A stretch of DNA of 64,000 bases from Microbacterium oleivorans (GTDB lineage Bacteria > Actinomycetota > Actinomycetes > Actinomycetales > Microbacteriaceae), in assembly GCF_013389665.1 (NCBI RefSeq), contig NZ_CP058316.1, forward strand, positions 2,170,001 through 2,234,000. The letters run 5' to 3'. Of this stretch, positions 214-51,165 are shown piece after piece; the first letter of the stretch is position 1, and the number at the start of each line of letters is the position of its first letter. A model generated the notes under the pieces. The model was not told the origin of the DNA and made no database searches. It saw only the letters and a list, made by a program, of their open reading frames with translations. Position numbers and translations under genes: made by a program.

Positions 214-254
214 TGTCAAGTCCACCGGGCCAGGTGGTCCGCCCTGAGTAGTGT
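214..254 (+). promoter_or_regulatory. Candidate promoter of glgX-treY with TGTCAAG box
   Basis: TGTCAAG at 214-220 lies 35 bases (start to start) before TAGTGT at 249-254, a plausible -10 element (TANNNT). Transcription would start near 261 and leave a short leader carrying the AGGGGAG ribosome-binding site at 268-274. The same box-to--10 arrangement recurs upstream of other genes in this window (15110, 37910, 55389). Confidence 0.35.
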
Positions 255-279
255 GAGCCTCACAAACAGGGGAGATCAC

Positions 280-2496
280 ATGCAGGTTTGGCCGGGTTCC
301 GCGTATCCGTTGGGCGCCACCTTCGACGGCAACGGGACGAACTTCGCGCTGTTCAGCGAGGGCGCCGAGAAGGTGGAGCTGTGCCTGTTCGACGAGGACG
401 GCACCGAGACGTGTGTCGACCTGCGCGACGTCGACGCATACGTCTGGCACGCCTACCTTCCCAACGTGCAGCCGGGGCAGCGCTACGGTTACCGCGTCCA
501 CGGGCCGAACGACCCGGCGTCGGGCAAGCGCTTCAACCCGAGCAAGCTGCTGCTCGACCCGTATGCGAAGGCCGTCGAGGGTCAGATCGACTGGGGTCAG
601 CCCGTGTTCGGGTACGACTTCGGTGACCCCGACTCGTTCAACGAGGAGGACTCCGCGGCCCACATGATGAAGGGCGTCGTCATCAACCCCTTCTTCGACT
701 GGGCGGGCGACCGGCTTCCGAAGATCCCCTACGCCGAGAGCGTCATCTACGAGGCCCACGTGAAGGGCCTCACGCAGCTGCATCCCGACATCCCCGAGGA
801 CATCCGCGGTTCGTACGCGGGTATCGCTCACCCGGCGGTCATCGAGCACCTCAAGAAGATCGGCGTCACCGCGCTCGAGCTCATGCCGGTGCACCAGTTC
901 GTCAACGACTCCACACTGCAGGAGAAGGGTCTTTCGAACTACTGGGGCTACAACACCATCGCGTTCTTCGCCCCGCAGAACACCTACTCCTCGACCGACG
1001 GCCACGGCCAGCAGGTGCAGGAGTTCAAGGCCATGGTCAAGGCCCTGCACGCGGCGGGCATCGAGGTCATCCTCGACGTGGTCTACAACCACACCGCGGA
1101 GGGCAATCACATGGGCCCGACGTTGTCGATGCGCGGCATCGACAACGAGGCCTACTACCGCCTCGAAGACGACGACAAGCGCTACTACACCGACTACACC
1201 GGCACCGGCAACAGTCTCAACGTCGGCAATCCCCACGCGCTGCAGCTCATCATGGACTCGCTGCGATACTGGGTCACCGAGATGCACGTCGACGGCTTCC
1301 GCTTCGACCTCGCCGCCACCCTCGCCCGCGAGTTCTACGACGTCGACCGCCTGTCGGCGTTCTTCGAGCTCGTGCAGCAGGACCCGATCGTCTCGCAGGT
1401 CAAGCTGATCGCCGAGCCGTGGGACATCGGCCCCGGCGGCTACCAGGTGGGCAACTTCCCGCCGCAGTGGACGGAGTGGAACGGCAAGTACCGCGACACC
1501 GTCCGCGACTTCTGGCGGGGCGAGGCCTCGACGCTCGGTGAGTTCGCCTCGCGTCTGACCGGCTCGGCCGACCTGTACGAGCACGACGGCCGGTGGCCGG
1601 TGGCATCCATCAACTTCGTCACGGCTCACGATGGCTTCACCCTGCGCGACCTGGTGTCGTACAACGAGAAGCACAACGACGCCAACGGCGAGGACGGCAA
1701 CGACGGCGAGTCGCACAACCGCTCCTACAACATGGGCGTCGAGGGGCCCACAGACGACCCCGAGGTGCTGACGATGCGCGGTCGGCAGCAGCGCAACTTC
1801 CTCGCGACGCTGCTGCTGAGCCAGGGCGTTCCGATGATCTGCCACGGAGACGAACTCGGTCGCACGCAGCAGGGCAACAACAACGGCTACGCGCAGGACA
1901 ATGAGCTGACCTGGATCCACTGGGACCAGGTCGACCAGCCGCTCATCGAGTTCACCGCGGCTCTTGCTCGCCTGCGCCGGCTGCACCCCACGTTCCGCCG
2001 CAGCCGATTCTTCGACGGCCGACCGGTGCGTCGGGAGGAGGGCGCCCCGCTGCCCGACATCGTGTGGCTGCGGCCGGACGGCAGCGCGATGCAGCCCGAG
2101 GACTGGGATTCCGGCTTCGGCCGCGCCGTCGCGGTGTTCCTCAACGGCGACGGCATCCGCGAGCGCGATCGTCGTGGCGAGGACATCTCGGACGACCACT
2201 TCTTCGTCCTGTTCAACGCGGGCGACGAGCAGGTCGACTTCGCCGTGCCCTCCGATGACTACAGCGACCGCTGGGAGGTCCTCATCGACACCAGCGGCGA
2301 GCTCGTCGGCTCGGAGCCGCTCGAGGGCGGCAAGTCGATCGGCGTCCGACCGAAGTCGCTCGTCGTTCTCGGCGAGTACGTCGAGCCCGAGCCGGAGGTC
2401 GATCACTCGGTCGCGGCGTCGCTCGCAGCCGGCTACACCTCGCCGATCGACATCGTCAGCGCCGAGGCCCCCACCCCGGAGGTGCCCGGACGATGA
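280..2496 (+). CDS. glgX: Glycogen debranching enzyme GlgX/TreX (GH13)
   Basis: Hydrolyses alpha-1,6 branches of glycogen or maltodextrin in the cytoplasm, giving linear chains for the TreY-TreZ trehalose route. The N-terminus (about residues 8-110) looks like a CBM48 beta-sandwich, followed by a GH13 barrel. Its four signature regions are visible: DVVYNH near 265, the nucleophile in DGFRFDLA near 340, the acid/base glutamate in IAEPWDIG near 380, and TAHDG near 450. I chose the ATG at 280 (738 residues) over a GTG at 253 because AGGGGAG ends five bases before it and homology starts immediately after. The stop overlaps the treY start by four bases (ATGA). With treY adjacent, the TreX role is more likely than glycogen breakdown alone. 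Confidence 0.93.
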   Translation: MQVWPGSAYPLGATFDGNGTNFALFSEGAEKVELCLFDEDGTETCVDLRDVDAYVWHAYLPNVQPGQRYGYRVHGPNDPASGKRFNPSKLLLDPYAKAVEGQIDWGQPVFGYDFGDPDSFNEEDSAAHMMKGVVINPFFDWAGDRLPKIPYAESVIYEAHVKGLTQLHPDIPEDIRGSYAGIAHPAVIEHLKKIGVTALELMPVHQFVNDSTLQEKGLSNYWGYNTIAFFAPQNTYSSTDGHGQQVQEFKAMVKALHAAGIEVILDVVYNHTAEGNHMGPTLSMRGIDNEAYYRLEDDDKRYYTDYTGTGNSLNVGNPHALQLIMDSLRYWVTEMHVDGFRFDLAATLAREFYDVDRLSAFFELVQQDPIVSQVKLIAEPWDIGPGGYQVGNFPPQWTEWNGKYRDTVRDFWRGEASTLGEFASRLTGSADLYEHDGRWPVASINFVTAHDGFTLRDLVSYNEKHNDANGEDGNDGESHNRSYNMGVEGPTDDPEVLTMRGRQQRNFLATLLLSQGVPMICHGDELGRTQQGNNNGYAQDNELTWIHWDQVDQPLIEFTAALARLRRLHPTFRRSRFFDGRPVRREEGAPLPDIVWLRPDGSAMQPEDWDSGFGRAVAVFLNGDGIRERDRRGEDISDDHFFVLFNAGDEQVDFAVPSDDYSDRWEVLIDTSGELVGSEPLEGGKSIGVRPKSLVVLGEYVEPEPEVDHSVAASLAAGYTSPIDIVSAEAPTPEVPGR

Positions 2497-4874
2497 CGAC
2501 CCCGGTCTCGACGTATCGGCTGCAGATCCGGCCGGGCTTCGATCTCGACGCGGCGGCCGGGCTGACCGACTACCTTCGCGAACTCGGGGTCGACTGGGCG
2601 TATCTCTCGCCGCTGCTCGCGGCGGCCGAGGGGTCGGACCACGGTTACGACGTCGTCGACCCGACGAAGGTCGATCCGCGGCGCGGCGGGCCCGAGGCGC
2701 TCGCGCGCTTCGCGGCCGCCGCCCGTGACGCCGGTCTCGGCGTGCTCGTCGACATCGTCCCGAACCACCAGGGGGTCGCCGTACCCGCGGAGAACCCCTG
2801 GTGGTGGGACGTGCTGCTCCGCGGCCGCGACTCGGTGCACGCTGCGGCGTTCGACATCGACTGGGACCACGGCGGCGGCAAGCTGAGCCTCCCGATCCTG
2901 GGCGCCCCGCTGCGGGACGCCGTCGCCGCGGGTGAGATCGAGGTCTCGCCAGCGCGCGGCGACGAGGCGCACGGGGCCACGGGCGTGGCGCGCTATTACG
3001 ACCACGTGCTGCCGCTGGCCGACGGGACCGCCCCGGCGGCGGCGACGACCGACCCGGCCACGGTGGACGCCGTGCTCGCCGCGCAGCATTGGCGTGCCGG
3101 CTTCTGGCGTGACGATGCCACCGAGCTCAACTACCGCCGGTTCTTCGCGGTGACCACCCTCGCCGGTGTGCGCGTGGAGCTGCCGGAGGTGTTCGAGGCC
3201 AGTCACGCCGAGATCCTCCGCTGGCTGCGCGAGGGCCTCGTCGACGGTCTGCGGATCGACCACCCCGACGGCCTCGCCGACCCGGGCGGCTATCTCGATC
3301 AGCTGGCGCAGGCGACCGGCGGCGTGTACGTCGTGGTCGAGAAGATCCTCGAGCACGCCGCCACCGACCACCCCGAGCAGCTGCCCGCATGGTGGGCGAC
3401 GGCCGGGACGACCGGGTACGACGCGATGGCCGAGCTCGACCGGGTGCTCATCGATCCGGCCGGCGAGAGCGCGCTCGACGAGCTCGACGCGGCACTGCGC
3501 CCCGACGGCGCCGACGCGGGATACGACGACGTGGTGCGCGTGGCCAAACGCGCGGTCGCCGACACGATCCAGGCCGCCGAGGTCGGTCGTCTGGTGCGGA
3601 GCCTCCCCGCGGACGTGCGCGAAGAGCTCGGAGACGACCTCGCCCGCGACGCGTTCGCCGAGCTGCTCACGAGCTTCTCGGTCTACCGGGTCTACCCGCC
3701 GGCCGGCAGTGAGCTGGTGGCCGAGGCCGTGGCCGCGGCATCCGCTGCGCGTCCCGACCTGGCCGAGGCGGTCGCCGTCCTCGCCCCGCTGGTGACCTCG
3801 GGTGACACCGAGCTCAGCCGCCGGTTCGGGCAGACCACCGGCCCCGTGATGGCCAAGGGCGTCGAGGACACCGCGTTCTATCGCTACCCGCGCCTCGGGA
3901 CGCTCACCGAGGTGGGCGGCGACCCCGGCGTGTTCGCGCTCGACGTGGCCGGCTACCACCGTGCACAGGCGCAGCGGCAGGCCTCCTGGCCGCACGCTCT
4001 GACCTCGCTCAGCACGCACGACACCAAGCGCAGCGAGGATGTGCGCGCGCGCCTCTCGGTGCTCGCCGAGATGCCGCAGCGCTGGACCGAGACGCTCGAC
4101 CGCCTGCGCGCCGTCGCCTCGACCGGCGACGGCCGCTTCGACGACCTCCTGTGGCAGGCGATCGTCGGCGCCTGGCCGGCGGCCGACGCGCGTCTGCACG
4201 ACTACGCCGAGAAGGCCGCTCGCGAGGGCGGGATCGTCACGTCGTGGTCGGACCCCGACGAGAACGGGGAGGCGCGCGTGCACGCGCTGGTCGACGCGGC
4301 CGACGGAGCTGCGCGCGAGATCGTCGAGGGGCTCGTCGCCGAGGTCACCGCCCCCGGGCGCTCGAACTCGCTGTCGATGAAGCTGCTGCAGCTCACCGCA
4401 CCCGGCGTGCCCGACGTCTATCAGGGGACCGAGCTCTGGGACCTCTCGCTCGTCGACCCCGACAACCGCCGCGACGTCGACTTCGCCGAGCGACGCGAGC
4501 TGCTGGCGCGGCTCGACGCCGGCTGGCATCCCGAGGTCGACGACTCCGGAGCCGCGAAGCTGCTCGTCGTCTCGCGTGCGCTGCGACTGCGGCGAGATCG
4601 CCCCGAGCTCTTCACCCGCTACGCCCCGCTGCCGGTCATCGGGCCGGCCGGCGACCACGCCGTCGCCTTCGATCGCGGCGGCTCCGTCACGGTCGCCACG
4701 CGGCTGCCCGTGGGCCTCGCCGCCCGCGGCGGGTGGGCCGACACCGTCGTGCTCGTCCCGCCGGGACGTCACATCGACCAGCTGACGGGCCGGGCATGGG
4801 AGGGCGGGGCGGTGCGTCTGGCCGACCTCCTCGACACCTACCCGGTGGCACTGCTGGCGCGACAGGAGTCCTGA
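2493..4874 (+). CDS. treY: Malto-oligosyltrehalose synthase TreY (GH13_26)
   Basis: Intramolecular transglucosylase that converts the reducing-end alpha-1,4 bond of a maltodextrin into the alpha-1,1 bond of maltooligosyl-trehalose. The 793 residues are of normal family length. Visible family features are STYRLQ at the N-terminus, SDHGYDVVD near 48, DIVPNH near 87-92, the nucleophile aspartate in GLRIDHPDG near 255, the glutamate in VVVEKIL near 281 and STHDTKRSEDVR near 507-518. A PDVYQGTE stretch near 640 also fits TreY. The ATG overlaps the glgX stop, so the two are translationally coupled. The partner TreZ is not next in line but at 13384, beyond an eight-gene cassette. A terminator-like hairpin follows. 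Confidence 0.94.
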   Translation: MTTPVSTYRLQIRPGFDLDAAAGLTDYLRELGVDWAYLSPLLAAAEGSDHGYDVVDPTKVDPRRGGPEALARFAAAARDAGLGVLVDIVPNHQGVAVPAENPWWWDVLLRGRDSVHAAAFDIDWDHGGGKLSLPILGAPLRDAVAAGEIEVSPARGDEAHGATGVARYYDHVLPLADGTAPAAATTDPATVDAVLAAQHWRAGFWRDDATELNYRRFFAVTTLAGVRVELPEVFEASHAEILRWLREGLVDGLRIDHPDGLADPGGYLDQLAQATGGVYVVVEKILEHAATDHPEQLPAWWATAGTTGYDAMAELDRVLIDPAGESALDELDAALRPDGADAGYDDVVRVAKRAVADTIQAAEVGRLVRSLPADVREELGDDLARDAFAELLTSFSVYRVYPPAGSELVAEAVAAASAARPDLAEAVAVLAPLVTSGDTELSRRFGQTTGPVMAKGVEDTAFYRYPRLGTLTEVGGDPGVFALDVAGYHRAQAQRQASWPHALTSLSTHDTKRSEDVRARLSVLAEMPQRWTETLDRLRAVASTGDGRFDDLLWQAIVGAWPAADARLHDYAEKAAREGGIVTSWSDPDENGEARVHALVDAADGAAREIVEGLVAEVTAPGRSNSLSMKLLQLTAPGVPDVYQGTELWDLSLVDPDNRRDVDFAERRELLARLDAGWHPEVDDSGAAKLLVVSRALRLRRDRPELFTRYAPLPVIGPAGDHAVAFDRGGSVTVATRLPVGLAARGGWADTVVLVPPGRHIDQLTGRAWEGGAVRLADLLDTYPVALLARQES

Positions 4875-4882
4875 GCGTCCGT

Positions 4883-4928
4883 CCCGCCCGAGGACCGCCG
4901 TCGGTGCACCTCGGGCGGGCGCTTGTTT
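4883..4928 (+). terminator. Rho-independent-type terminator after treY
   Basis: CCCGCCCGAGG (4883-4893) and CCTCGGGCGGG (4909-4919) form a perfect 11-bp stem with a 15-base loop, followed by CGCTTGTTT. It closes the glgX-treY transcript and separates it from the transporter cassette that starts at 5018. Confidence 0.7.
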
Positions 4929-5017
4929 ACGCACTGTGAAGGACGGTTTGGTGCCGACGGGGTCCGGCGTGGTGGGGTGTGTGCATCCCACGTCGTTCTG
5001 CACCTCCAGGAGACCTC

Positions 5018-6670
5018 ATGCCTCGCTTCGCCCGTGCACTCCTCGCGACGGCCTCCGCCGTCGCCGCCGCCGCGCTCATCGCCGGCTGCTCCGCCGGCAC
5101 GACCTCCGGTGCCGCAGGGGAGGCCGGCGAGCCGCAGGACGGCGGAACGCTCACCTACCTCGAGCCGCAGGCGTGGACGACGCTCTACCCGCCCAGCGCC
5201 GGCTTCTACCCAAACGGCGGCATCGTCAACAACATCACCGACCGGCTGCTCTACCAAGATCCCGAGACGCTCGAGCTCGAACCGTGGATCGCGACGGAGT
5301 ACACCGTCAACGCCGACGCCACGGAGTACACCTTCACGATCCGCGACGACGTCACCTACTCCGACGGCAGCGCGCTGACGCCCGAGAACGTCGTCAAGAA
5401 CATCGACCTCTACGGTCGAGGCGACACCGAGCGAGCCCTGCCCGTCTCGGAGGCCATCAACAACTACGACCGCGGCGAGGTCACGGGCGACGACACGGTG
5501 ACGTTCCGCTTCACCGCTCCGTCGCCGGGCTTCGCCCAGGCGGTGTCGACCATCAACTCCGGTCTGCTCTCGGACGAGACCCTCGACCGGGCGAGTGAAG
5601 GATTCGGTCCCGGAAACGCCGAGGACATCGTCGGAAGCGGCCCCTTCGTCGTCTCCGCCGAGGATCTGGGTACGAAGACGACCCTGTCGTCGCGCGACGA
5701 CTACGACTGGGCGCCCGACTCGCTCGAGCACCAGGGCGCCGCCCGTCTCGACGGTGTGGAGTTCATCGTGGCCGCGGAGGACAGCGTCCGCGTCGGCACG
5801 GTCGTGGCGGGGCAGGCCGACATCGCGCGTCAGATCGAGGCGCCCGACGAGGCCCAGTTCGCCGCCGGCGGACTCTCGCTGGTGGCATCCGCGACGAACG
5901 GCGTCAACAACGGTCTGAGCTTCCGGTTCGGCGACGACCGGCTCTCCGACATCCGCGTCCGGCAGGCGATCATCGCCGGCATCGACCGGCAGGAGATCAT
6001 CGACACCCTCTTCACCGACAACTACCCGCTGGCCACCGGCGCACTCGCCACCACCGCGCTGGGATACATCGACACGTCCGACTCCTACGTCTACGACCCG
6101 GATGCGGCGGCCGACCTCCTCGACGAGGCCGGGTGGTCGCTCGGCTCCGACGGCGTGCGCGAGAAGGACGGTCAGAAGCTGGAGCTCACGTTCAACGAGG
6201 CGTTGCCGCAGCCGCGCTCCCGCGAGGTCGTGACGCTCATCCAGGAGCAGCTGGCCAAGATCGGCATCCAGGTGGAGCTCTTCTCGGGCGACCAGGCCGC
6301 CCAGACGGCCGCGTCGGCCGACATCGGCCAGATCCAGGTGTACCACTCCATGGTCGGCCGGGCCGATTTCGATGTGCTGAAGTCGCAGTACTTCTCGGGC
6401 AACCGCAACACCCTCCTCAACCGCGACCCGGCGAGCGGCTCGGTCCGCGACCCCGAGCTCGATCGCCTCCTCGCGGCGATCGCCTCCGAGCCGACCACCG
6501 AGCAGCGGCAGGAGGCGTCGGCGGCCGCGCAGCGCTATCTCGCCGAGAACGCCTACATCCTCCCGATCTTCGAGGAGCCGCAGGTGTTCGGTGTCGGGCC
6601 GACGGTGCACGGGTTCTCGACCGAGTCCGTGGGACGCCCGTCGTTCTACCAGACCTGGCTCGCGCAGTGA
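5018..6670 (+). CDS. Family 5 ABC substrate-binding lipoprotein (oxidoreductase-linked cassette)
   Basis: Extracytoplasmic binding protein of a peptide/nickel-type ABC importer. The 550-residue product begins with a lipoprotein signal peptide (lipobox LIAGC, Cys24). It has family 5 features: a GGTLTYL start, a TEYTFTIRDDVTYSDG region, and an IRVRQAIIAGIDR region near 310. I chose the ATG at 5018 because AGGAG (5008-5012) precedes it; an upstream GTG at 4979 would place the signal peptide internally. It is the first gene of a set (5018-13319) whose enzymes match, as far as I recall, the neighbourhood described for TIGR04027-TIGR04030, in which this position is held by the KPN_01854-type binding protein. 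The ligand is unknown. Confidence 0.85.
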   Translation: MPRFARALLATASAVAAAALIAGCSAGTTSGAAGEAGEPQDGGTLTYLEPQAWTTLYPPSAGFYPNGGIVNNITDRLLYQDPETLELEPWIATEYTVNADATEYTFTIRDDVTYSDGSALTPENVVKNIDLYGRGDTERALPVSEAINNYDRGEVTGDDTVTFRFTAPSPGFAQAVSTINSGLLSDETLDRASEGFGPGNAEDIVGSGPFVVSAEDLGTKTTLSSRDDYDWAPDSLEHQGAARLDGVEFIVAAEDSVRVGTVVAGQADIARQIEAPDEAQFAAGGLSLVASATNGVNNGLSFRFGDDRLSDIRVRQAIIAGIDRQEIIDTLFTDNYPLATGALATTALGYIDTSDSYVYDPDAAADLLDEAGWSLGSDGVREKDGQKLELTFNEALPQPRSREVVTLIQEQLAKIGIQVELFSGDQAAQTAASADIGQIQVYHSMVGRADFDVLKSQYFSGNRNTLLNRDPASGSVRDPELDRLLAAIASEPTTEQRQEASAAAQRYLAENAYILPIFEEPQVFGVGPTVHGFSTESVGRPSFYQTWLAQ

Positions 6671-6719
6671 CGAGCCCGGTCGGGACCGGCCGGGCGCCGT
6701 CGGCGGGGCGGCCACGGCC

Positions 6720-7769
6720 GTGACGACGTACGTGCTGCGTCGGATCGGGCAGGCGCTGCTCGTGCTCGTGCTCGCCTACACCGTCGCGTACCTGCTGCTG
6801 GCGGCGCTGCCGGGCGACGCCGTCATCGCCCGGTACGCCAATCCCGAGCTCGGTCTCACCGCCGAGCAGGTGCAGGCCATCCGAGAGGCGCTCGGTGCCG
6901 ACCAGCCCCTCATCGTGCAGTACGTCCGATCGATCGCGGGATTCCTCACGGGCGACTTCGGATACTCGGTCAGCAGCGGCGCCGCCGTCTCGGACCTCAT
7001 CGCGACGGCGCTGCCCCCCACCCTCGTGCTCGCCGTCCTGGGTCTCGCCGTCGCCGTCGTCCTGGCCGTGACGATCGCCTTCACCGCGACCTACGGTGCC
7101 GGACGCTGGCTGCGCCGCCTGTTCCGCGGGCTTCCCCCGCTGTTCGTCTCGCTCCCGGTCTTCTGGATAGGCATCATCCTCATCCAGGTGTTCTCGTTCC
7201 GGCTGGGACTCATCCCGGCGATCGGAGCCGACCCGGTTCAGGCGCTGGTGCTGCCGGTGCTGACCCTCGCCATCCCGATCGCGGCGCCGTTGGCCCAGGT
7301 GCTGACGCGCAGCATCGACGAGGTCAGGGAGCAGCCCTTCGTCACCGTCGTTCGCGCCCGCGGCGCGAGCACATCCTGGCTGCTGTGGCGCAACGTCGCG
7401 CGGAACGCGCTGCTGCCCACCCTCACGATGGGCGGCCTGCTCTTCGGAGAGCTCGTCGGCGGGGCGGTCGTCACCGAGACCGTCTTCGCGCGCGCCGGCA
7501 TCGGCCAGCTCACCGCCCAGGCCGTGCAGACGCGCGACACCCCGGTGCTGCTGGCCGTCGTCGTGATCTCGACGGTCGCCTTCGTGACGATCAACCTGAT
7601 CGTCGACCTCCTCTACCCCGTCCTCGACGCGCGCCTGCGAACCGGCGCTCGTCGTGGTCGCCGCAGCCCGTCGTCGGGAGCCGCAGCCGTGGGCGCGGCC
7701 GCCGCGACGGGCGCGAGCGCAGCGGCGGACGTCTCGACAGATGCCATCTCGAACGGAGCGGGACGATGA
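6720..7769 (+). CDS. ABC importer permease 1 (DppB-like)
   Basis: First membrane subunit of the importer, 349 residues from the GTG at 6720. The N-terminal YVLRRIGQALLVLVLAY segment, a loop with GLTAEQVQAIREALGADQP, and about six hydrophobic helices follow the DppB/OppB pattern. The coupling motif region GASTSWLLWRNVARNALLP lies near 210-235. A poorly conserved stretch of 49 bases separates it from the binding-protein stop; a longer frame extends upstream but overlaps the end of that gene with no homology. The C-terminal tail is alanine-rich and low in complexity. The next gene starts within its stop codon (ATGA). Confidence 0.87.
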   Translation: MTTYVLRRIGQALLVLVLAYTVAYLLLAALPGDAVIARYANPELGLTAEQVQAIREALGADQPLIVQYVRSIAGFLTGDFGYSVSSGAAVSDLIATALPPTLVLAVLGLAVAVVLAVTIAFTATYGAGRWLRRLFRGLPPLFVSLPVFWIGIILIQVFSFRLGLIPAIGADPVQALVLPVLTLAIPIAAPLAQVLTRSIDEVREQPFVTVVRARGASTSWLLWRNVARNALLPTLTMGGLLFGELVGGAVVTETVFARAGIGQLTAQAVQTRDTPVLLAVVVISTVAFVTINLIVDLLYPVLDARLRTGARRGRRSPSSGAAAVGAAAATGASAAADVSTDAISNGAGR

Positions 7770-8629
7770 CCGCGCTCATGCCCCCGCCCGGCTCCGTCGA
7801 GCCCGGCCCCGTCCCGACGGCGCCGGCGCGCTGGCGCTCGCTCGTGCGGCCGGGGCTCGTCGTCCCCGCGGTCGTCGTGCTCGTCGCCCTCGCGTGGGCG
7901 CTCGCCCCCGGGCTGTTCACGGGGCAGAGCCCGACCGAGACGGTCGCCGCCTCGCTGCAGGCGCCGAGCGCCGCGCACTGGTTCGGGACGGATGCCACGG
8001 GGCGCGATGTCTACGCGCGCGTCGTGCACGGCGCATCGCAGTCGATCGTGGGAGCCCTCGTCGCGGTGCTCGTCGGGCTCATCGCGGGCAGCGCGATCGG
8101 CATCACCGCAGGCGCCGTCGGCGGGGCCGTCGACGACGTGCTGATGCGTTTCGTCGACGTGCTGCTGGCCATCCCGGGTCTGCTGCTGTCGCTCAGCGTC
8201 GTCATCCTGCTCGGTTTCGGCACGACCAACGCCGCCATCGCGGTGGGGGTCACCTCCATCGCCGTCTTCGCCCGCCTCGCCCGCTCGCAGGTCGTGAGCG
8301 TGCGGGTCAGCGACTTCGTCGAGGCCGCCTACGGCTCGGGCTCGACGGCCGCCGGCGTGCTGTTCCGGCACATCCTGCCGAACTCGCTGACGCCGGTCCT
8401 CGCGCTCGCCGCATTGCAGCTCGGATCGGCGATCCTGCAGATCTCGACTCTGGGCTTCCTGGGGTACGGCGCGCCCCCGCCGACGCCCGAATGGGGGCTC
8501 CTGATCGCGGAGGGGCGCGACTACGTCGCGACCGCCTGGTGGCTCACCGTGCTGCCGGGCGCCGTCGTCGCCGTCGTCGTGCTCGCCACCAACCGCCTCA
8601 GCCACGCCATCCAGGGAGGTGCCGAGTGA
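7766..8629 (+). CDS. ABC importer permease 2 (DppC-like)
   Basis: Second membrane subunit, 287 residues, starting at the ATG that overlaps the previous stop by four bases. It shows a cytoplasmic N-terminal tail, a first helix near 30-50, the HWFGTDATGRDVYARVVHGA signature typical of DppC/OppC proteins near 70, and a coupling region around AYGSGSTAAGVLFRHILPN near 190. GYGAPPPTPEWGLLIAEGRD near the end is also family-typical. Together with permease 1 it should form the heterodimeric channel driven by the fused ATPase encoded next. Confidence 0.9.
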   Translation: MTALMPPPGSVEPGPVPTAPARWRSLVRPGLVVPAVVVLVALAWALAPGLFTGQSPTETVAASLQAPSAAHWFGTDATGRDVYARVVHGASQSIVGALVAVLVGLIAGSAIGITAGAVGGAVDDVLMRFVDVLLAIPGLLLSLSVVILLGFGTTNAAIAVGVTSIAVFARLARSQVVSVRVSDFVEAAYGSGSTAAGVLFRHILPNSLTPVLALAALQLGSAILQISTLGFLGYGAPPPTPEWGLLIAEGRDYVATAWWLTVLPGAVVAVVVLATNRLSHAIQGGAE

Positions 8630-10302
8630 GCGCGCGACCCCTGCTGGAGATCCGCGACCTCGCCGTCCGCTACCGCACGCGCCGCGGACCGGTCGATGCC
8701 GTGCGCGGCGTCTCGCTCGATGTGGCCGCCGGGGGCGTCACGGCTCTGGTGGGAGAGTCGGGCTCGGGCAAGTCGTCGGTCGCGCAGTCGGTCATCGGAC
8801 TGCTCGCCGGCAACGGCAGGGTCGCGGGCGGCTCGATCCGCCTCGACGAGCGCAGCGGCGGGCCGGTCGAACTCGTCGGACTCGCCGAGCGCCGCTGGCG
8901 ACAGCTGCGCGGACGATGCATCGGTCTCATCCCGCAGGACCCCGGCAGCTCCCTCAACCCCGTCGCGACGATCGGCGCGAGCGTCGCCGAGCCGCTGCGG
9001 ATCCATGGCTGGCGTGACGGCGCGCGCATCCGTGCGCGCGTGATCGACCTCCTCGACCGCGTCGGCATCGACGACCCGGAGGCGCGCGCACGTCAGTATC
9101 CGCACGAGCTGTCGGGTGGGATGCGGCAGCGCGTGCTGATCGCCGCCGCGATCGCCCTCGAACCCGAGCTGGTCATCGCCGACGAGCCGACGAGCGCCCT
9201 CGACGTCACGGTGCAGCGCACGGTCCTGGACCTGCTCGACGAGCTGCGGCGCGAGACCGGCACCGGCATCCTGTTCATCACGCACGACCTCGCCGTCGCC
9301 GCCGACCGCTCGGACGACATCGTCGTGATGCGGGACGGCCAGGTGCAGGAGTCCGGCCGTTCGGCGTCGGTGCTCGCCTCACCGTCGTCGCCCTACACCC
9401 GCACCCTGTTGGCCGATGCCCCCTCACTGGCACGCGTCGTCGCTCGCGAGGCGCCGAGCGTCGACACGAGCGAGCCGCCCCTCGTCGCGGTGCGAGGCAT
9501 TCGTCAGGAGTTCGCACGCCCGGGGCGCGCCCCGCTCGTCGCCGTCGACGACGTCTCGTTCGTCGTGCCGCGCGGGACGACTCATGCGCTCGTGGGCGAG
9601 TCGGGATCGGGCAAGACGACGATCGGGCGCAGCATCGCCGGCTTCCACCGCCCGACGGGCGGCACCGTACGGGTCGGCGACACCGAGGTGACCGCCCTGC
9701 GCTCGCGCCGGGAGTTCCACCGGACGACACAGCTCGTCTACCAGAACCCCTACGCGTCGCTCGATCCACGTCAGACGATCTCCGCCGTCCTCACCGAGCC
9801 GCTGCGCAACTTCGGCATCGGCAGCCGCGCCGACCGCGCGGAACGTGTCGCGCACCACCTCGAGCTCGTCTCGCTCGCACCCGAGATCGGGCTGCGGCAC
9901 CCGCGCGAGCTGTCGGGCGGGCAGCGCCAGCGCGTCGCCATCGCCCGGGCGTTGATCGTCGAACCACAGCTCGTCGTGCTGGACGAGGCCGTCTCGGCGC
10001 TCGACGTGACCGTCCAGGCCCAGATCCTGCGCCTGCTCGCGCGGCTGCAGGACGACCTCGACCTCACCTACGTCTTCATCTCGCACGACCTGGCCGTCGT
10101 CCGGCAGGTCAGCGACACCGTCTCCGTGCTCCGCCGCGGCGTCCAGGTCGAGCAGGGACCCGTGGCCCGCGTGTTCGACGCGCCGCAGCACGACTACACG
10201 AGGCGATTGCTCGACGCCATCCCCGGCACGGGGCTGCGCTCGTCGGCCCTGCCGGCAGCCGAGGGTTCCCCGACCGCAACGAATCAGGAGGCCACAGCGT
10301 GA
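8626..10302 (+). CDS. Fused double ABC ATPase (DppD-DppF type)
   Basis: Energises the importer; one 558-residue chain contains both nucleotide-binding domains that are separate proteins in DppD/DppF systems. Domain 1 (about 1-265) has Walker [10 protein letters not shown], signature LSGGMRQRV and Walker [12 protein letters not shown]. Domain 2 (about 285-540) has [18 protein letters not shown] and VVLDEAVSALD, where the usual proline after DE is alanine. Each half ends with the peptide-type tail (SPYTRTLL, HDYTRRLL). The GTG start at 8626 overlaps the permease stop and follows AGGGAGGT, a strong ribosome-binding site. A second fused ATPase of the same design is encoded at 51166-52854. Confidence 0.92.
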   Translation: MSARPLLEIRDLAVRYRTRRGPVDAVRGVSLDVAAGGVTALVGESGSGKSSVAQSVIGLLAGNGRVAGGSIRLDERSGGPVELVGLAERRWRQLRGRCIGLIPQDPGSSLNPVATIGASVAEPLRIHGWRDGARIRARVIDLLDRVGIDDPEARARQYPHELSGGMRQRVLIAAAIALEPELVIADEPTSALDVTVQRTVLDLLDELRRETGTGILFITHDLAVAADRSDDIVVMRDGQVQESGRSASVLASPSSPYTRTLLADAPSLARVVAREAPSVDTSEPPLVAVRGIRQEFARPGRAPLVAVDDVSFVVPRGTTHALVGESGSGKTTIGRSIAGFHRPTGGTVRVGDTEVTALRSRREFHRTTQLVYQNPYASLDPRQTISAVLTEPLRNFGIGSRADRAERVAHHLELVSLAPEIGLRHPRELSGGQRQRVAIARALIVEPQLVVLDEAVSALDVTVQAQILRLLARLQDDLDLTYVFISHDLAVVRQVSDTVSVLRRGVQVEQGPVARVFDAPQHDYTRRLLDAIPGTGLRSSALPAAEGSPTATNQEATA

Positions 10303-11408
10303 GTGGACCACGACTGGGATTCTTCACACGCCTGCTCGAGGACACGACCGCGGCCGAGCGCTACCGGTTCGCGATCGAGCAGATCGAGCAGGCCGAGCGA
10401 TCCGGCTTCGCGTCGGGATGGGTCGCGCAGCATCACTTCGGCGAGGACGAGGGCGGGCTGCCCTCGCCCTTCGTGCTCCTCGCCGCGGCCGCCGAGCGCA
10501 CCTCGCGCATCGGCCTCGCGACCGCCGTGCTCACCCTGCCCATCGACGACCCGCTGCGCGCGGCGGAGGACGCCGCGGTCCTCGACCTGCTCAGCGGCAA
10601 CCGGGTGCAGCTGGGCGTCGCATCGGGGGGCACGCCGTCGTCGTTCGCCGCGTTCGGGCACGACCCCGACCGACGGCGCGAGATCTTCGACGACCACCTC
10701 GCCGTCTTCACGGATGCGCTCGCCGGCCGCGGGGTGCGCGGCACGGACTCGCGCATCTACCCCGCTGCCGGAGACCTCGGCGAGCGGGTCTGGCAGGCGA
10801 CCTTCTCGGTCGACGGCGGCCGTCGTGCGGGAGCGCGCGGTGACGGTCTGCTGCTGTCGCGGACGCAGCCGCGGACCGCCCGGGAACCGGGCGCGCCCCT
10901 GCACGACCTGCAGCTCCCGATCATCGCGGCGTACCGGGATGCTCTCCCCGAGGGCGCGCCGGTGCGGGTGCTCGCCTCGCGGACCGGCCTGGTCGTCGAT
11001 CCCGAGAACCGCACGCGGGCGCTCGAGCTCGCCGAGGACGGTCTGCGGCGGCTCGCGGCGACGATGCACGGAACCGACGTCGACGGCGTCGGCATCGACG
11101 AGCTCGTGCGCATCACCGACACGCACGTCGGCACCGTCGACGAGGTCGTGTCGTCGCTCGCGCGCGATGAGACGCTCGCGGCAGCGACGGACGTGTCGTT
11201 CCAGGTCCACTCGATCGCGGCGACGCACGAGCTCACGCTGCGCTCCCTGCAGCTGCTGGCCGAGGAGGTCGCGCCCCGGCTGGGGCTGTCGGTCGGTCCC
11301 GAGGCGGTGCGTTCGCTCCACGGCGCGCACCGGACGACCGGCGCCATCGCCGCAGGATCCGCCCCCGCACCCCGCTCGACCCACCACCGTGAGGAGACCA
11401 CCGCGTGA
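10299..11408 (+). CDS. Luciferase-like FMN-dependent monooxygenase (KPN_01858-like)
   Basis: Predicted cytoplasmic flavin-dependent oxidoreductase with the bacterial-luciferase (LLM) barrel, 369 residues. Visible family traits are the start PRLGFFTRLL, QHHF at 44-47, the FVLLAAAAERTSRIGLATAV strand-helix block near 60-80, and SGNRVQLGVASGGTP near 105. Its position after a peptide-type importer and before two CMD proteins fits the TIGR04027 subfamily (my recollection, not checked). The substrate is unknown; a reduced flavin supplier is not encoded nearby. It overlaps the ATPase stop by four bases (GTGA), so uptake and oxidation are probably made together. The last 25 residues are low in complexity. 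Confidence 0.85.
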   Translation: MSGPRLGFFTRLLEDTTAAERYRFAIEQIEQAERSGFASGWVAQHHFGEDEGGLPSPFVLLAAAAERTSRIGLATAVLTLPIDDPLRAAEDAAVLDLLSGNRVQLGVASGGTPSSFAAFGHDPDRRREIFDDHLAVFTDALAGRGVRGTDSRIYPAAGDLGERVWQATFSVDGGRRAGARGDGLLLSRTQPRTAREPGAPLHDLQLPIIAAYRDALPEGAPVRVLASRTGLVVDPENRTRALELAEDGLRRLAATMHGTDVDGVGIDELVRITDTHVGTVDEVVSSLARDETLAAATDVSFQVHSIAATHELTLRSLQLLAEEVAPRLGLSVGPEAVRSLHGAHRTTGAIAAGSAPAPRSTHHREETTA

Positions 11409-12043
11409 CCACCGCATCCGCAGACATCATCGACCTGCTCGCCGGCATCCGCCCCGGCGATGCGCTCTCGCGCGTTCGGGATTCGCGAGAGCAGGCGCGC
11501 GAGAACGCCCAGCGCAGCTTCGAGGCGCTCCTCGAGCCCGCCGACCCGGGCAGCCTCCCCGTGGCCGAACGGTACGCCGTCGCCGCGTTCGTGGCCGAGC
11601 TCCACGGCTTCCCGCAGGCGGTGTCGTTCTATGGCGACCTCCTCGACGACGAGGCGCCGGCACTCGCGGTCGCCGTCCACGCTGCAGCCGAATCCGCGCG
11701 CGCGAGCGGACCGTACGGGCGGTACCGCGAGCCGGGGCTGCGGTCGGAGGACCTCGACGGGCCGCACTGGTCGGCCGAGCCCGCCGCCGTGCCGGCGCTC
11801 GGCGAGCGGCTGGCCACCGCCCTCGCGCACGCCCACCTCCTGGTGTTCCGGCCGCGCGAGGCCCGACCGGAACACCTCCGGGCGCTCGTGTCGGCCGGGT
11901 GGAGCGCCGACGACATCGTCACCCTCTCTCAGCTCGTCGCCTTCCTCGCGTTCCAGCTGCGCAGCGCCTGGGGGCTCCGCGTGATCGCGGGCCATGCGGT
12001 CTCGGCCGTCGACCCGGCATCCGTCGAAGGAGCATCCTCATGA
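11405..12043 (+). CDS. CMD-fold protein without cysteines (Avi_7170-like)
   Basis: A 212-residue carboxymuconolactone-decarboxylase/AhpD-fold protein. The C-terminal part (WSADDIVTLSQLVAFLAFQL and following) is the recognisable CMD helix pair, but the protein contains no cysteine, so it cannot use the CxxC redox chemistry of AhpD. In the cassette it stands directly before a second CMD protein that does have CxxC, matching my recollection of the paired families TIGR04029 and TIGR04030. It may be a structural or substrate-binding partner of that protein. The GTG start overlaps the monooxygenase stop (GTGA). Confidence 0.75.
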   Translation: MTTASADIIDLLAGIRPGDALSRVRDSREQARENAQRSFEALLEPADPGSLPVAERYAVAAFVAELHGFPQAVSFYGDLLDDEAPALAVAVHAAAESARASGPYGRYREPGLRSEDLDGPHWSAEPAAVPALGERLATALAHAHLLVFRPREARPEHLRALVSAGWSADDIVTLSQLVAFLAFQLRSAWGLRVIAGHAVSAVDPASVEGASS

Positions 12044-12675
12044 CCAGTCCCGTCACCGACCACGCCGAGCTCGCCCGCCCGGAGGCGTTCACCCAGGAGG
12101 GCCTCGGGTGGGTGCCGTGGCTCGAGCCCGTCGCCGAGGACGACCTCACCGCTCAGCAGCGCGATGCGCTCATCGAGCCGGCGCGTGCGAAGATGCCCTA
12201 CTTCCGTCTGCTGGCCCGCGACCCCGAGGCGCTTCGCGCCCGGACGCTGACCGACCTCGACATCTTCTTCAACGTCTCGGGAGGCATCGGGAGGGCCGAG
12301 CGCGAGCTCGCCGCCGCGGCCACATCGCGCCGGAACGGGTGCGTGTTCTGCGCCTCCGTCCACGCGGCGGCGGCGACCCGCGAGTCGGGGCGTCGCGATG
12401 ACGTGCAGCGCCTCCTCGACGAGGGTACGGGCGCCGACGTCGGTGACGAGACCTGGAACGCCGTCGTCGCGGCATCCGTCGCGCTCGCCGACACCCCGCT
12501 CGCCTTCGACGGAGCGGACGTCGACCGTCTGGTCGCCGCGGGCCTCGACGTCGCGGAGATCGTGGACGTGGTCAACGGCGCCGCCTTCTTCAACTGGGCG
12601 AATCGGCTCATGCTCTCGCTCGGCGAGCCCGAGGTGCCCGCGCGCCGCCGCGCGACCGAGGGGAGTGACGCATGA
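12040..12675 (+). CDS. AhpD-like peroxidase-domain protein with CxxC (Avi_7169-like)
   Basis: A 211-residue AhpD/CMD-fold protein carrying the redox motif CVFCASVH (Cys101, Cys104, His108), the catalytic arrangement of alkylhydroperoxidase D. It may remove peroxide released by uncoupled turnover of the flavin monooxygenase, or act directly on its product; both are inferences. The start is the ATG at 12040, overlapping the previous stop; homology begins soon after (WVPWLEPV). A longer open frame upstream runs antiframe through the neighbouring genes and is not real. GDVVN-like helix residues (EIVDVVNGAAFFNWANRLM) near 175-190 complete the fold. Confidence 0.85.
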   Translation: MTSPVTDHAELARPEAFTQEGLGWVPWLEPVAEDDLTAQQRDALIEPARAKMPYFRLLARDPEALRARTLTDLDIFFNVSGGIGRAERELAAAATSRRNGCVFCASVHAAAATRESGRRDDVQRLLDEGTGADVGDETWNAVVAASVALADTPLAFDGADVDRLVAAGLDVAEIVDVVNGAAFFNWANRLMLSLGEPEVPARRRATEGSDA

Positions 12676-13319
12676 GCATCCCGACCCGACTCGATCACGT
12701 CGTCATCGCCGGCCCCGACCTCGCCGAGCTGGTCGCCTGGTTCGCCGCCCGCACCGGCGTGACCGCCGCCCCGGGCGGCGCGCACCCGACGGGAACCGCG
12801 AACGCGCTCGTCGCGCTGACGATCGACGGCCGCCGCGGGCCGCAGTACCTCGAGCTGATCGGTCCCGACCCGGACCGGAGCGATCGTGCACTGCCCGCGA
12901 CGTTCGACATCGCGTCGCTCGAGGCGCCGTCCGTCCAGGCGTATGCGGTCCATCCCGACGACATCCAGGCGACCGTCCACCACGCTCGAGAGCACGGCTA
13001 CGACCCGGGCGACGTCGGCGACCTGTCGCGCCGCACCCCCGCCGGAGAGCTGCTGGAATGGCGGCTGACCCGCGGTCCGGGGCAGCGGCTGGACGTGCCG
13101 TTCCTCATCGACTGGGGGAGGACGCCGCACCCCGGCCTCGCCGACATCCCCACGATCGAGCTCGTCTCGTTCGAGCGTGTCGAGCCGGACCCCGGAACCC
13201 TCCGACCGGTGATCGACGCGCTCGGTCTCGGCGACGGGGCGGCGCCGATCGTCGCCGGGCCCGCAACGGGCTACCGGCTCGTGCTCCGGACGGAGTCGGG
13301 CGAGACCGTCGAGCTCTAA
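12672..13319 (+). CDS. VOC / glyoxalase-like protein, last gene of cassette
   Basis: A 215-residue vicinal-oxygen-chelate-type protein. [11 protein letters not shown] at the N-terminus and [10 protein letters not shown] near 58 are the beta-strand motifs that normally bring metal ligands (His, Glu) in this superfamily; a TGTANALV stretch near 37 resembles the glyoxalase-3-like group. It could open or rearrange a ring or bind the substrate of the monooxygenase; nothing in the sequence fixes this. It overlaps the AhpD-like gene by four bases and is the last of the coupled genes, with a 64-base gap before treZ. I do not recall it as a constant member of the described neighbourhood. Confidence 0.75.
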
Positions 13320-13371
13320 GCACACTCCGGGTCGTTCCCGCCACCACTGGCCCGCTCTCCCCGACGATCGC

Positions 13372-13377
13372 GAGGAT
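13372..13377 (+). promoter_or_regulatory. Possible leaderless -10 element of treZ
   Basis: GAGGAT lies exactly six bases before the treZ ATG, with A and T at the two key -10 positions as in the other leaderless candidates of this window. The first base is not T, so it is weaker than the TANNNT cases. It suggests that treZ can be transcribed independently of the cassette upstream. Confidence 0.3.
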
Positions 13378-13383
13378 GGTGTC

Positions 13384-15123
13384 ATGACGATCAACGTGTG
13401 GGCACCTCGGGCCGAGCGGGTCCGGCTCCGACGACCGGAGCAGACCGACCTCGAGCTCGTGGCGGGCCAGGACGGCTGGTGGTCGGCAAACATCGAGCTC
13501 GCCGCGGGCGACCGCTACGGCTTCGTGATCGGCGACGGCGACGACGTCCGACCCGACCCGCGCTCCCGGCGTCAGCCCGACGGCGTGCACGGCCTCTCCG
13601 CCATCGACGACCCCGCCGCGTTCGCCTGGACGGACGACCGCTGGACGGGGCGGCCGCTCGCGGGTGGGATCATCTACGAGCTGCACATCGGGACCTTCAC
13701 GAGTGCCGGCACGCTCGACGCGGCGATCGCCCGGCTCGACCACCTCGTCGAGCTCGGCGTCACCCACATCGAGCTGCTTCCGGTCAATGCGTTCAACGGC
13801 ACCCACAACTGGGGATACGACGGCGTGCTCTGGTATGCCGTGCAGGAGACCTACGGCGGCCCCGAGGCGTACCGGCGGTTCGTCGACGCGGCTCACGCGG
13901 CCGGTCTGGCCGTGATCCAGGACGTCGTGTACAACCACCTCGGACCGTCGGGGAACTACCTGCCCGAGTACGGCCCGTACCTGCGCGACGGGCGCCGCAA
14001 CACCTGGGGCGACAGCGTCAACCTCGACGAGGATGCCGTCCGCGAGTACATCCTCGGCAACGCCGAGATGTGGCTGCGAGACTTCCACGTCGACGGTCTG
14101 CGACTCGACGCCGTGCACGCCCTCCACGACGACGACAGCGCGGTGCACATCCTGGAGGAGCTCGGCGAGCGGGTGGACGCGCTGAGCGCGCACCTCGGGC
14201 GACCCCTCACCCTCATCGCCGAGAGCGACATGAACGACCCGGTGATGATCCTGCCGCGGGAGGCCGGCGGCTACGGCATGACCGCCCAGTGGTCGGACGA
14301 CTGGCACCACGCGGTGCACGTCGCCCTCACCGGCGAGACCGTGGGCTACTACGCGGACTTCGACGACATCGACGCGCTGCCCAAGGTCTGGAACGCCGGC
14401 TTCTTCCACGACGGCACCTACTCGTCGTTCCGAGGACGCGACCACGGACGCCCCATCCCGACCGAGTCGCCGTCGTGGCGCCTCGTGACCTTCGCGCAGG
14501 ACCACGACCAGATCGGCAACCGCGCCGCCGGCGACCGGCTGTCGGCGACGCTGAGCGCCGATCGCCTCGCCGTCGCCGCGGTGCTCACGCTCGCCGCGCC
14601 CGGAACCCCGATGCTGTTCATGGGCGAGGAGTGGGGCGCGACGACGCCCTGGCAGTTCTTCACCTCGCATCCCGAGCCCGAGCTCGCCGAGGCGACCGCC
14701 GCCGGCCGCAAGCAGGAGTTCGCCGAGATGGGGTGGGACGAGGACCTCGTGCCCGACCCCAACGACCCGGCGACCTTCTTGCGGTCCAAGCTCGACTGGA
14801 CCGAGACCGAAGAGGGCGAGCATCTCCGCCTGCTCTCGCTCCACAGCGAGCTCGCGCGACTGCGTCGTACCGTGCCGGACCTCACCGACCCGCGTCTGCC
14901 CGCGCGAGGCGCAGCTGCCTCCGAGGGGTCGGGTGGGCGCCTCTACGATCTGCAGCGCGGTCGCGCACGCGTTCTCGTGAACCTCTCGGACGAGCCGTGG
15001 CGCATCGAACCCCGGGGCGATGTCGTCTGGCTCGAGACGCTCGAGAGTCGGCTCGTGGACGACCTCCTCGTCATCGCGCCGAACTCCGCCGTGATCGTGG
15101 GGCCCGATCTGTCAAGCCGATGA
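13384..15123 (+). CDS. treZ: Malto-oligosyltrehalose trehalohydrolase TreZ (GH13_10)
   Basis: Releases free trehalose from maltooligosyl-trehalose made by TreY. The 579 residues show an N-terminal beta-sandwich ([14 protein letters not shown]), then the GH13 barrel with [10 protein letters not shown] near 95, [14 protein letters not shown] near 180, the nucleophile in DGLRLDAVH near 237, the acid in IAESDMNDP near 280 and [11 protein letters not shown] near 371. The ATG at 13384 gives the family's usual N-terminus. Its natural partners treX and treY end at 4874; the transport cassette lies between them on the same strand. The end of the gene contains a TGTCAAG box that probably serves the next gene. 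Confidence 0.94.
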
Positions 15124-49052: not shown

Positions 49053-49068
49053 CGCTCCGCTGATCCAC

Positions 49069-49107
49069 GCGGGGCGGGCCACCGCCTCGGGCGCGAGCCC
49101 GCCCCGC
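49069..49107 (+). terminator. Strong intra-operon hairpin after the binding-protein gene
   Basis: GCGGGGCGGGC (49069-49079) and GCCCGCCCCGC (49097-49107) form a perfect 11-bp stem with a 17-base loop. There is no T-run. Its position between binding-protein and permease genes suggests an attenuator or mRNA-stabilising structure that leaves more binding protein than permease. Confidence 0.6.
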
Positions 49108-49131
49108 ACTCCTCGACCGAAAGATTCCGCG

Positions 49132-51086: not shown

Positions 51087-51107
51087 CCGCCCGGCACCGC
51101 GGTCGGC

Positions 51108-51122
51108 CGCCGCCTCGCGGCG
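51108..51122. terminator. Small hairpin between convergent permease and ATPase genes
   Basis: CGCCGC (51108-51113) pairs with GCGGCG (51117-51122) around a three-base loop in the 79-base convergent gap. It lacks a T-run and is short; the function as terminator is uncertain. Confidence 0.3.
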
Positions 51123-51165
51123 ATGCGCGCTACAGCTGCACCACCGGCGGCGCCGGCGTGCGGCC

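Follow-up and report, generated by a model that had tools for sequence, protein, structure and literature searches.

A cysteine- and methionine-poor importer-monooxygenase cassette of Microbacterium oleivorans as a probable sulfur-scavenging operon

The sulfate-starvation operons ssuEADCB, tauABCD, sfn and msu pair an importer with an oxygenase, and their products are poor in cysteine (Cys) and methionine (Met). The Bacillus yxe and ytm/cmo operons, which salvage S-adducts, combine an importer and a flavin monooxygenase with an N-acetyltransferase and a deacetylase. Here we describe an eight-gene cassette of Microbacterium oleivorans (RefSeq assembly GCF_013389665.1, contig NZ_CP058316.1), located at positions 5018-13319 on the + strand of a 64,000-nucleotide stretch (hereafter the window), which spans 2170001-2234000 of a 3.35-Mb single-contig genome with a completeness of 99.99%. 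We interpret the cassette as a variant of the sulfate-starvation scavenging operon, and put the probability that it serves sulfur scavenging at about 0.84. Its genes encode a solute-binding protein (SBP), the permeases and ATPase of an ATP-binding cassette (ABC) importer, a luciferase-like monooxygenase (LLM) and three small proteins. The cassette and its upstream region (distances in base pairs, bp) are laid out as follows:

4884-4919, + strand: hairpin with a T-rich stretch, edges set by eye; 4875-4945 folds at -38.2 kcal/mol (z -3.13 vs 200 shuffles)
4927-4941, + strand: operator-like motif TTACGCACTGTGAAG, pattern T[TG]ACG-N3-[CT]GTGA[AC][CG], 76 bp 5' of the SBP start
5018-6670, + strand: TIGR04028 family 5 solute-binding lipoprotein (SBP_bac_5), 550 residues; 836.8 bits vs cut-off 468.5; 1 Cys, 1 non-initial Met
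6720-7769, + strand: ABC permease 1, DppB/NikB type, 349 residues; PF00528 and PF19300, under the cut-off for all NCBIfam families reported
7766-8629, + strand: ABC permease 2, DppC/NikC type, 287 residues; PF00528
8626-10302, + strand: fused (duplicated) ABC ATPase, 558 residues; two PF00005 stretches, oligo_HPY
10299-11408, + strand: TIGR04027 LLM (Bac_luciferase), 369 residues; 508.6 bits vs cut-off 412.9
11405-12043, + strand: TIGR04029 cysteine-free CMD protein, 212 residues; 235.1 bits vs cut-off 100.75, no Pfam match
12040-12675, + strand: TIGR04030 AhpD-like protein (CMD/AhpD, CxxC), 211 residues; 291.4 bits vs cut-off 233.15
12672-13319, + strand: VOC protein (Glyoxalase_3), 215 residues; PF13468, 118.8 bits; 0 Cys, 0 internal Met

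A preliminary description, made from the letters of the window, had reported eight same-strand genes joined by four-base overlaps from the first permease on. All eight open reading frames were recovered with a codon-usage caller, which agreed on the starts; a 49-bp gap separates the SBP gene from permease 1, and six 4-bp overlaps chain the last seven genes. Profile matches bore out each of the proposed families, from the SBP_bac_5 lipoprotein through the two BPD permeases, the duplicated ATPase, the Bac_luciferase enzyme, the Cys-free CMD protein and the CxxC AhpD-like protein to the VOC protein, and four proteins scored above the curated cut-offs of TIGR04027-TIGR04030, the families that had been named. 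What that description overlooked was the sulfur signature set out below. Its statement that no substrate or product had been reported for these families is not supported: a 2024 paper describes PCX02514 of Klebsiella sp. PCX (PDB 8k74), a member of the LLM family, as a poly(acrylic acid) (PAA) monooxygenase, with no operon context given in the accessible part of the report (PMC11354265).

The same four families, each classed as a hypothetical equivalog or equivalog domain, make up the NCBIfam neighbourhood KPN_01854-01858 and Avi_7169-7170, and their order is the same in Klebsiella, Pantoea, rhizobia and Pectobacterium. Compared with the KPN_01854-01858 type, the host has separate CMD and AhpD genes and an additional VOC gene, whereas 26 enteric cassettes fuse CMD and AhpD. 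Relative to the ssu, tau, sfn and msu operons, the cassette has a Dpp-type importer instead of SsuABC, a non-SsuD LLM and an AhpD pair. With yxe and ytm it shares an importer and a flavin monooxygenase and, in relatives of the cassette (10 of 56 genomes or records), an M20D amidohydrolase, but its importer is of another class and its eight genes include no N-acetyltransferase or deacetylase. Corynebacterium glutamicum cg2678-cg2674 likewise joins a peptide-type importer with a duplicated ATPase to an AhpD-like gene, but no LLM is among the operon genes listed. The accessible text of PMC2807442 counts cg2678-cg2674 among the genes that rise at pH 6, a condition that also induces the McbR sulfur regulon, and marks the operon as under predicted McbR control. 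TIGR04028 was matched in one of 14 control genomes, that of C. glutamicum, and the equation of cg2678 with TIGR04028 rests on this genome match, not on a sequence comparison.

The first line of evidence for sulfur scavenging is composition. The eight proteins contain 4 Cys and 9 non-initial Met, 13 in 2743 residues (0.47%), compared with 1.89% in the comparison genes of the host genome (n = 394; the window plus 20 spaced 20-kb stretches). None of 247 contiguous eight-gene runs of the host was as low (minimum 0.85%), and another set of family 5 importer genes in the window (47379-52854, with its ATPase on the other strand) has an ordinary 7 Cys and 26 Met in 1770 residues. Among 69 related loci, all but L059 (no cassette at the cut-offs) and L077 (no flank) could be scored, and in 67 of 67, from two phyla, the cassette was poorer in Cys and Met than its own flanks (median 0.61% vs 2.12%), loci of the same genus not being independent. 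The depletion was seen in loci of Microbacterium, Microlunatus, Nonomuraea, Pectobacterium, Klebsiella, Pantoea, rhizobia, Roseateles and Variovorax. Cassette ATPases average 0.57% (n = 56) vs 2.16% for 37 other ATPases of the same loci, and across loci the CMD and VOC families average 0.07% and 0.00%. The signal is that of the whole operon, not of single genes. Flanks were almost equally poor (0.79-0.83%) in L039 and L051 (Allorhizobium/Agrobacterium vitis) and L050 (Rhizobium NXC24), where they contain tauA, sulfonate ABC, LLM and acyl-CoA dehydrogenase genes; the tauA beside the L039 cassette has 0.00% Cys and Met, as in sulfate-starvation operons. Proteins produced under sulfur shortage tend to be poor in both residues. 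Gordonia desulfinases are described as low in Cys and Met for this reason in the accessible part of PMC7661421.

The second line is the upstream motif. Of 14 cassette upstreams (13 from Microbacterium, including the window, and one from Microlunatus), 10 carry its strict form and two a relaxed one; the motif was not found upstream of the L011 and L012 cassettes. The strict pattern has five matches in the host genome vs none for a reversed control, and four of the five, at three loci, sit 52-86 bp 5' of importer or LLM genes. One is the cassette itself. A tandem pair (1838335/1838345) precedes a second importer operon at host 1838412-1846942 (L109:16412 to L110:4942), which encodes a TIGR04028-like SBP (327.6 bits, below cut-off), permeases, an ATPase, an M20 hydrolase-like protein, DUF1684 and a CE1758-like LLM (below cut-off). 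Its genes range from 0.00 to 1.31% Cys and Met, and its LLM has no Cys or internal Met. The match at 2008203 precedes an SfnG-like monooxygenase gene (245 bits, cut-off 383; 0.88% Cys and Met), and the fifth falls at the end of an unrelated gene.

Two side observations concern the genes of this second operon. The DUF1684 protein also adjoins Cys- and Met-poor LLM genes in genome G130 (L146). Nearby in the host, at 1828219-1832408 (L109:6219-10408), lie three LLM-like genes of 339, 391 and 441 residues with no Cys and no internal Met, of which the 441-residue product passes the NtaA/DmoA cut-off and the 391-residue product misses it.

Across 12 further genomes, the sources of most of the motif sequences, 77 matches were found vs 10 for the reversed pattern. 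Thirty of the 77 were examined as loci (L114-L143), and eight precede a fitting gene: four cassettes, two sites forming a tandem before a cysI-like gene, one SfnG-like gene with a near-identical start and one NtaA-type LLM gene (249 bits, cut-off 280). The cysI-like gene, in Microbacterium memoriense (G330), encodes a sulfite/nitrite reductase-like protein (below cut-offs) with the tandem motif 103 and 113 bp upstream, and is followed by genes for CysH, CysD, CysN, an SsuA-family protein and a siroheme-type methyltransferase. We scored upstream regions with a weight matrix built from cassettes alone, for which 438 background upstreams gave a maximum of 15.1; this maximum belongs to another family 5 binding-protein gene (L095, 0.60% Cys and Met). 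Six cysI upstreams exceeded 432 background upstreams in a Mann-Whitney test (p = 0.0007), a result weakened by three close relatives among them. A Fisher test on the host motif genes was not used, as the sample consisted partly of motif-selected stretches and one gene was counted twice. Judged from the sequences, the putative regulatory link stands firmly in the host and clearly in G330; elsewhere it amounts to a trend.

The third line is the sulfur economy of the host. Its genome gave no CysN match at E <= 1e-60 and no CysD/CysH match (PF01507) at E <= 1e-8, where control genomes were matched; these negatives cover the named families alone and extend to no other route to inorganic sulfur. Where sulfate activation is lacking, a cell needs to take up reduced or organic sulfur. 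Among 14 cassette-bearing Microbacteriaceae genomes searched, seven had both CysN and CysD/CysH and seven had neither (completeness given for two), so that sulfate assimilation may often have been lost in this group. A lifestyle on reduced or organic sulfur without sulfate activation is described for Pelagibacter in the accessible part of PMC5069961.

The survey of gene neighbourhoods covered 69 related loci, of which 29 came from scanning genome contigs, 22 were picked from 128 plasmid records and 18 came from further genomes. The sample is non-random, as loci were located through the LLM and 22 were hand-picked; identity cut-offs for locus typing were our own, and L013 and L077 are contig ends. 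The order SBP-permease-permease-ATPase-LLM followed by CMD and AhpD domains was kept in 53 of the 69, an arrangement that is therefore not due to chance, and CMD and AhpD are fused into one protein in 26 of these 53 (enteric bacteria and relatives). The remainder comprise nine loci with LLM-CMD-AhpD only, three with the LLM only and four (L038, L059, L065, L077) that are partial, cut off or without a cassette. The preliminary description had treated importer and oxidases as a unit, and transporter and oxidases were indeed usually joined, but the nine loci hold the triad without an importer of the cassette type. Because of these nine, the LLM-CMD-AhpD triad is taken as the core and the importer as exchangeable. 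In five of the nine (L066, L067, L068, L070, L071) two small ATPases lie 5' of the triad, and the L066 binding protein, the sole one tested in that group, is of branched-chain amino acid type.

TIGR04027 was matched at E <= 1e-80 in 15 of 120 genomes from the host's family (host included) and in 4 of 197 from the order of a Pectobacterium (that Pectobacterium included), and the LLM gene of Samsonia erythrinae (L014) had no DNA match in 5,426 E. coli genomes. The closest locus retrieved was from Microbacterium sp. cf332 (LLM 89% identical). Carriers include plant-associated and soil bacteria, among them Pantoea, Pectobacterium, Agrobacterium, rhizobia and Microbacterium.

Several relatives have sulfur-related neighbours. 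In Variovorax (L042) the triad is flanked by a CysB-type regulator (413.5 bits, cut-off 402) and an NtaA-type LLM; tauA lies beside the L039 cassette, and a sulfonate ABC system with tauA beside that of L046. Methionine synthase MetE (L072:13916-18014) is encoded on the same strand immediately 5' of a cassette, an O-acetylhomoserine (OAH) sulfhydrylase gene adjoins the one in L008, and L063 has SfnB-like (below cut-off) and NtaA-type LLM genes as neighbours. Ten cases (8 Microbacterium, 2 Pantoea) have an M20D amidohydrolase at a distance of up to 10 kb, vs 1.07 expected from 135 matches in the 56 genomes or records, a count from which G124 was dropped for a missing position and in which some LLM positions were inferred from that of the SBP. 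Proximity to SsuA-family genes was dropped as a marker of sulfonate systems, given 3 of 57 among the matches listed. The sole host SsuA-family match (1752005, below cut-off) sits among genes of ordinary Cys and Met content, in what is presumably a purine or thiamine-precursor cluster, and served as a negative control.

The enzymes offer further clues. In the LLM, H45 and H46 are invariant and align with the LuxA histidine pair, which we take to be catalytic, and Ala-Ser stands at the LuxA Cys-Arg positions. The protein shares 52% identity with a Klebsiella cassette LLM, itself near-identical to PCX02514. The accessible part of PMC11354265 assigns five PCX02514 residues to substrate binding; in 37 members R125 and S186 never vary, R10 and R187 hardly do, and H253 lies in a variable stretch. 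R10, R125, S186 and R187 correspond to R11, R126, S187 and R188 of the host LLM. By analogy, some of these residues may hold the flavin phosphate. The LLM falls far short of the SsuD profile, scoring 21 bits against the TIGR03565 cut-off of 518.2.

The AhpD-like protein retains the E-C-x2-C-H pattern: E89, C101, C104 and H108 are invariant in 28 of 28 aligned members and match the catalytic Glu, Cys-x2-Cys and His set of AhpD, with the spacing of the M. tuberculosis protein. The CMD protein, with 0 Cys, lacks the redox cysteines of the AhpD peroxidase. Its structure model (predicted local distance difference test, pLDDT, 91.8) drew 47 AhpD/CMD-family proteins among the 50 Foldseek matches listed, the best with E 0.0039 and none at or below 0.001, and on the model it is a probable inactive partner of AhpD fold. 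Because an AhpD-like model without Cys coincides with the enteric CMD-AhpD fusion, we suggest that the two proteins are the inactive and active AhpD subunits of one complex. In the VOC protein, H9, H38 and E61 are invariant in 15 aligned members.

As a sulfur-scavenging operon, the cassette would be induced by sulfur shortage, and its lipoprotein and Dpp-type ABC importer would take up a small polar organosulfur compound. The LLM, with reduced flavin mononucleotide (FMNH2) from a flavin reductase encoded elsewhere, would oxygenate the compound at a position adjacent to sulfur, breaking the C-S bond and freeing sulfite or a thiol; we hold C-S cleavage by the LLM to be probable, with less assurance than the role of the operon. 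The AhpD-like protein, paired with the Cys-free CMD protein, could reduce a peroxide or sulfenate formed en route, and the VOC protein might act on the carbon fragment. An N-acylated, amino-acid-like substrate would suit the M20D amidohydrolase of some relatives.

Several observations weigh against a sulfur role or limit it. Composition suggests expression under sulfur shortage, not an enzyme function. Low Cys and Met content is frequent in single proteins (67 of the 394 genes sampled lie below 0.9%), so that the SfnG-like gene, at 0.88%, is no outlier, and the neighbouring TreY (window 2493-4874) is also very poor, with 0 Cys and 4 Met in about 793 residues. The motif is operator-like, with sites before importer or LLM genes in the host (4/5) and before the G330 cys operon, but it is strong before few cys operons: the six cysI upstreams score 18.2, 12.1, 9.0, 8.7, 6.9 and 1.4, only two of them above the 99th percentile of 10.1. 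Three of the six appear closely related, and the CysN loci L151 and L155 had no usable cysI upstream. The other 22 of the 30 motif loci fit nothing recognised or fall in coding sequence, and background genes without depletion score above 10 (L092:13319, 2.15%; L088:1705, 3.90%). No flavin reductase is among the eight genes, and the host cassette has no amidohydrolase beside it. SsuA-family genes within about 10 kb were found in 3 of 57 genomes or records (W02, W07, W11) among the matches listed, not clearly above chance. None of the 14 control genomes passes the TIGR04027 cut-off, and the C. glutamicum importer may work without this LLM; its genes are linked to heme tolerance and HrrA in the accessible part of PMC9491836.

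Among the alternatives, the one that survives best keeps the sulfur-starvation operon but has the LLM carry out N- or O-dealkylation of the imported sulfur compound, with other enzymes freeing the sulfur later. Luciferase-type enzymes are diverse, and amidohydrolase, aldo/keto reductase-like and DUF1684 genes accompany relatives of the cassette. We regard this as unlikely, if worth keeping in view, as the LLM families found in the same neighbourhoods, NtaA/DmoA and SfnG-like, include known desulfurising enzymes. It appears improbable that the operon serves carbon or nitrogen catabolism of a compound that lacks sulfur, for example an opine, a dipeptide or an amide. Family 5 importers usually transport peptides, opines or nickel, AgaA ranks second among the PDB sequence matches to the SBP, and amidohydrolases recur near the cassette; against this, the other family 5 importer group in the window is ordinary in Cys and Met, and the host motif loci contain flavin monooxygenases.

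That the LLM degrades PAA and the cassette serves polymer breakdown is very improbable. The accessible part of PMC11354265 reports an NADPH-dependent (reduced nicotinamide adenine dinucleotide phosphate) loss of ~34% of PAA molecular weight, less active mutants and a crystal structure, and PCX02514 is near-identical to the LLM encoded in a Klebsiella cassette. The same text gives a kcat of 0.00214 per s and no activity with FMN or FMNH2, unlike the luciferase family. Because turnover is so slow and depends on NADPH with no support from FMN or FMNH2, we read PAA oxidation as a side reaction and doubt that it is the physiological role. A synthetic polymer is also an unlikely cargo for a family 5 importer, and a PAA role leaves unexplained both the depletion in all scored loci and the common motif. 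A peroxide or oxidative-stress module with an attached importer can be set aside with similar firmness: the AhpD active-site pattern is conserved, C. glutamicum cg2674 is described as an AhpD reduced via Lpd/SucB (PMC11266056) and the cg2675-cg2678 operon is treated in connection with heme tolerance and control by HrrA (PMC9491836), in the accessible parts of both, but such a module would need neither importer nor luciferase-type enzyme, and the accessible part of PMC12581299 reports that sulfur starvation itself raises antioxidant defences.

A more specific form of the sulfur-scavenging reading is possible but, on balance, doubtful. In it, TIGR04027 would be a hitherto unrecognised group of FMNH2-dependent enzymes that cleave the C-S bond of an imported, S-substituted Cys derivative, probably N-acylated or bound in a dipeptide, the CMD-AhpD heteropair a dedicated sulfenate/peroxide reductase, and the system, spread over Actinobacteria, enterics, rhizobia and betaproteobacteria, a main sulfur route in this host. 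We found no report of a sulfur role for TIGR04027-TIGR04030 in the open-access literature searched (one library), and a term search of papers on Klebsiella chromate, Pseudomonas sulfur starvation and Rhodococcus gave no clear mention of the cassette. KPN_01858 of Klebsiella and TauC are named in one passage on iron-dependent proteins in the accessible part of PMC7194016. Should sulfur scavenging hold, TIGR04027-TIGR04030 would gain a concrete role, checkable on defined sulfur sources; the only published LLM activity found, on a synthetic polymer, would be seen differently; and, given the habitats of the carriers, the imported substrate may be a common plant or soil organosulfur compound. Cys and Met composition together with one conserved upstream motif can hint at the physiological condition for an orphan operon.

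Regarding its surroundings, the cassette is inserted between glgX/treX-treY and treZ (window 253-15123), and treZ begins 64 bp past its end. The same placement is found in five other Microbacterium loci (L002, L003, L004, L006, L029). The hairpin 3' of treY is a probable terminator of the upstream GlgX/TreX-TreY unit, and because it and its T-rich tail follow treY, the cassette probably has its own promoter. An Rfam scan of the window gave nothing above the gathering score, and the SBP structure model (pLDDT 64) was too poor for a fold search. As a minor observation on the binding protein, Pectobacterium polonicum carries two tandem TIGR04028 SBP genes (L019:2790-4424 and 4839-6473) before one importer.

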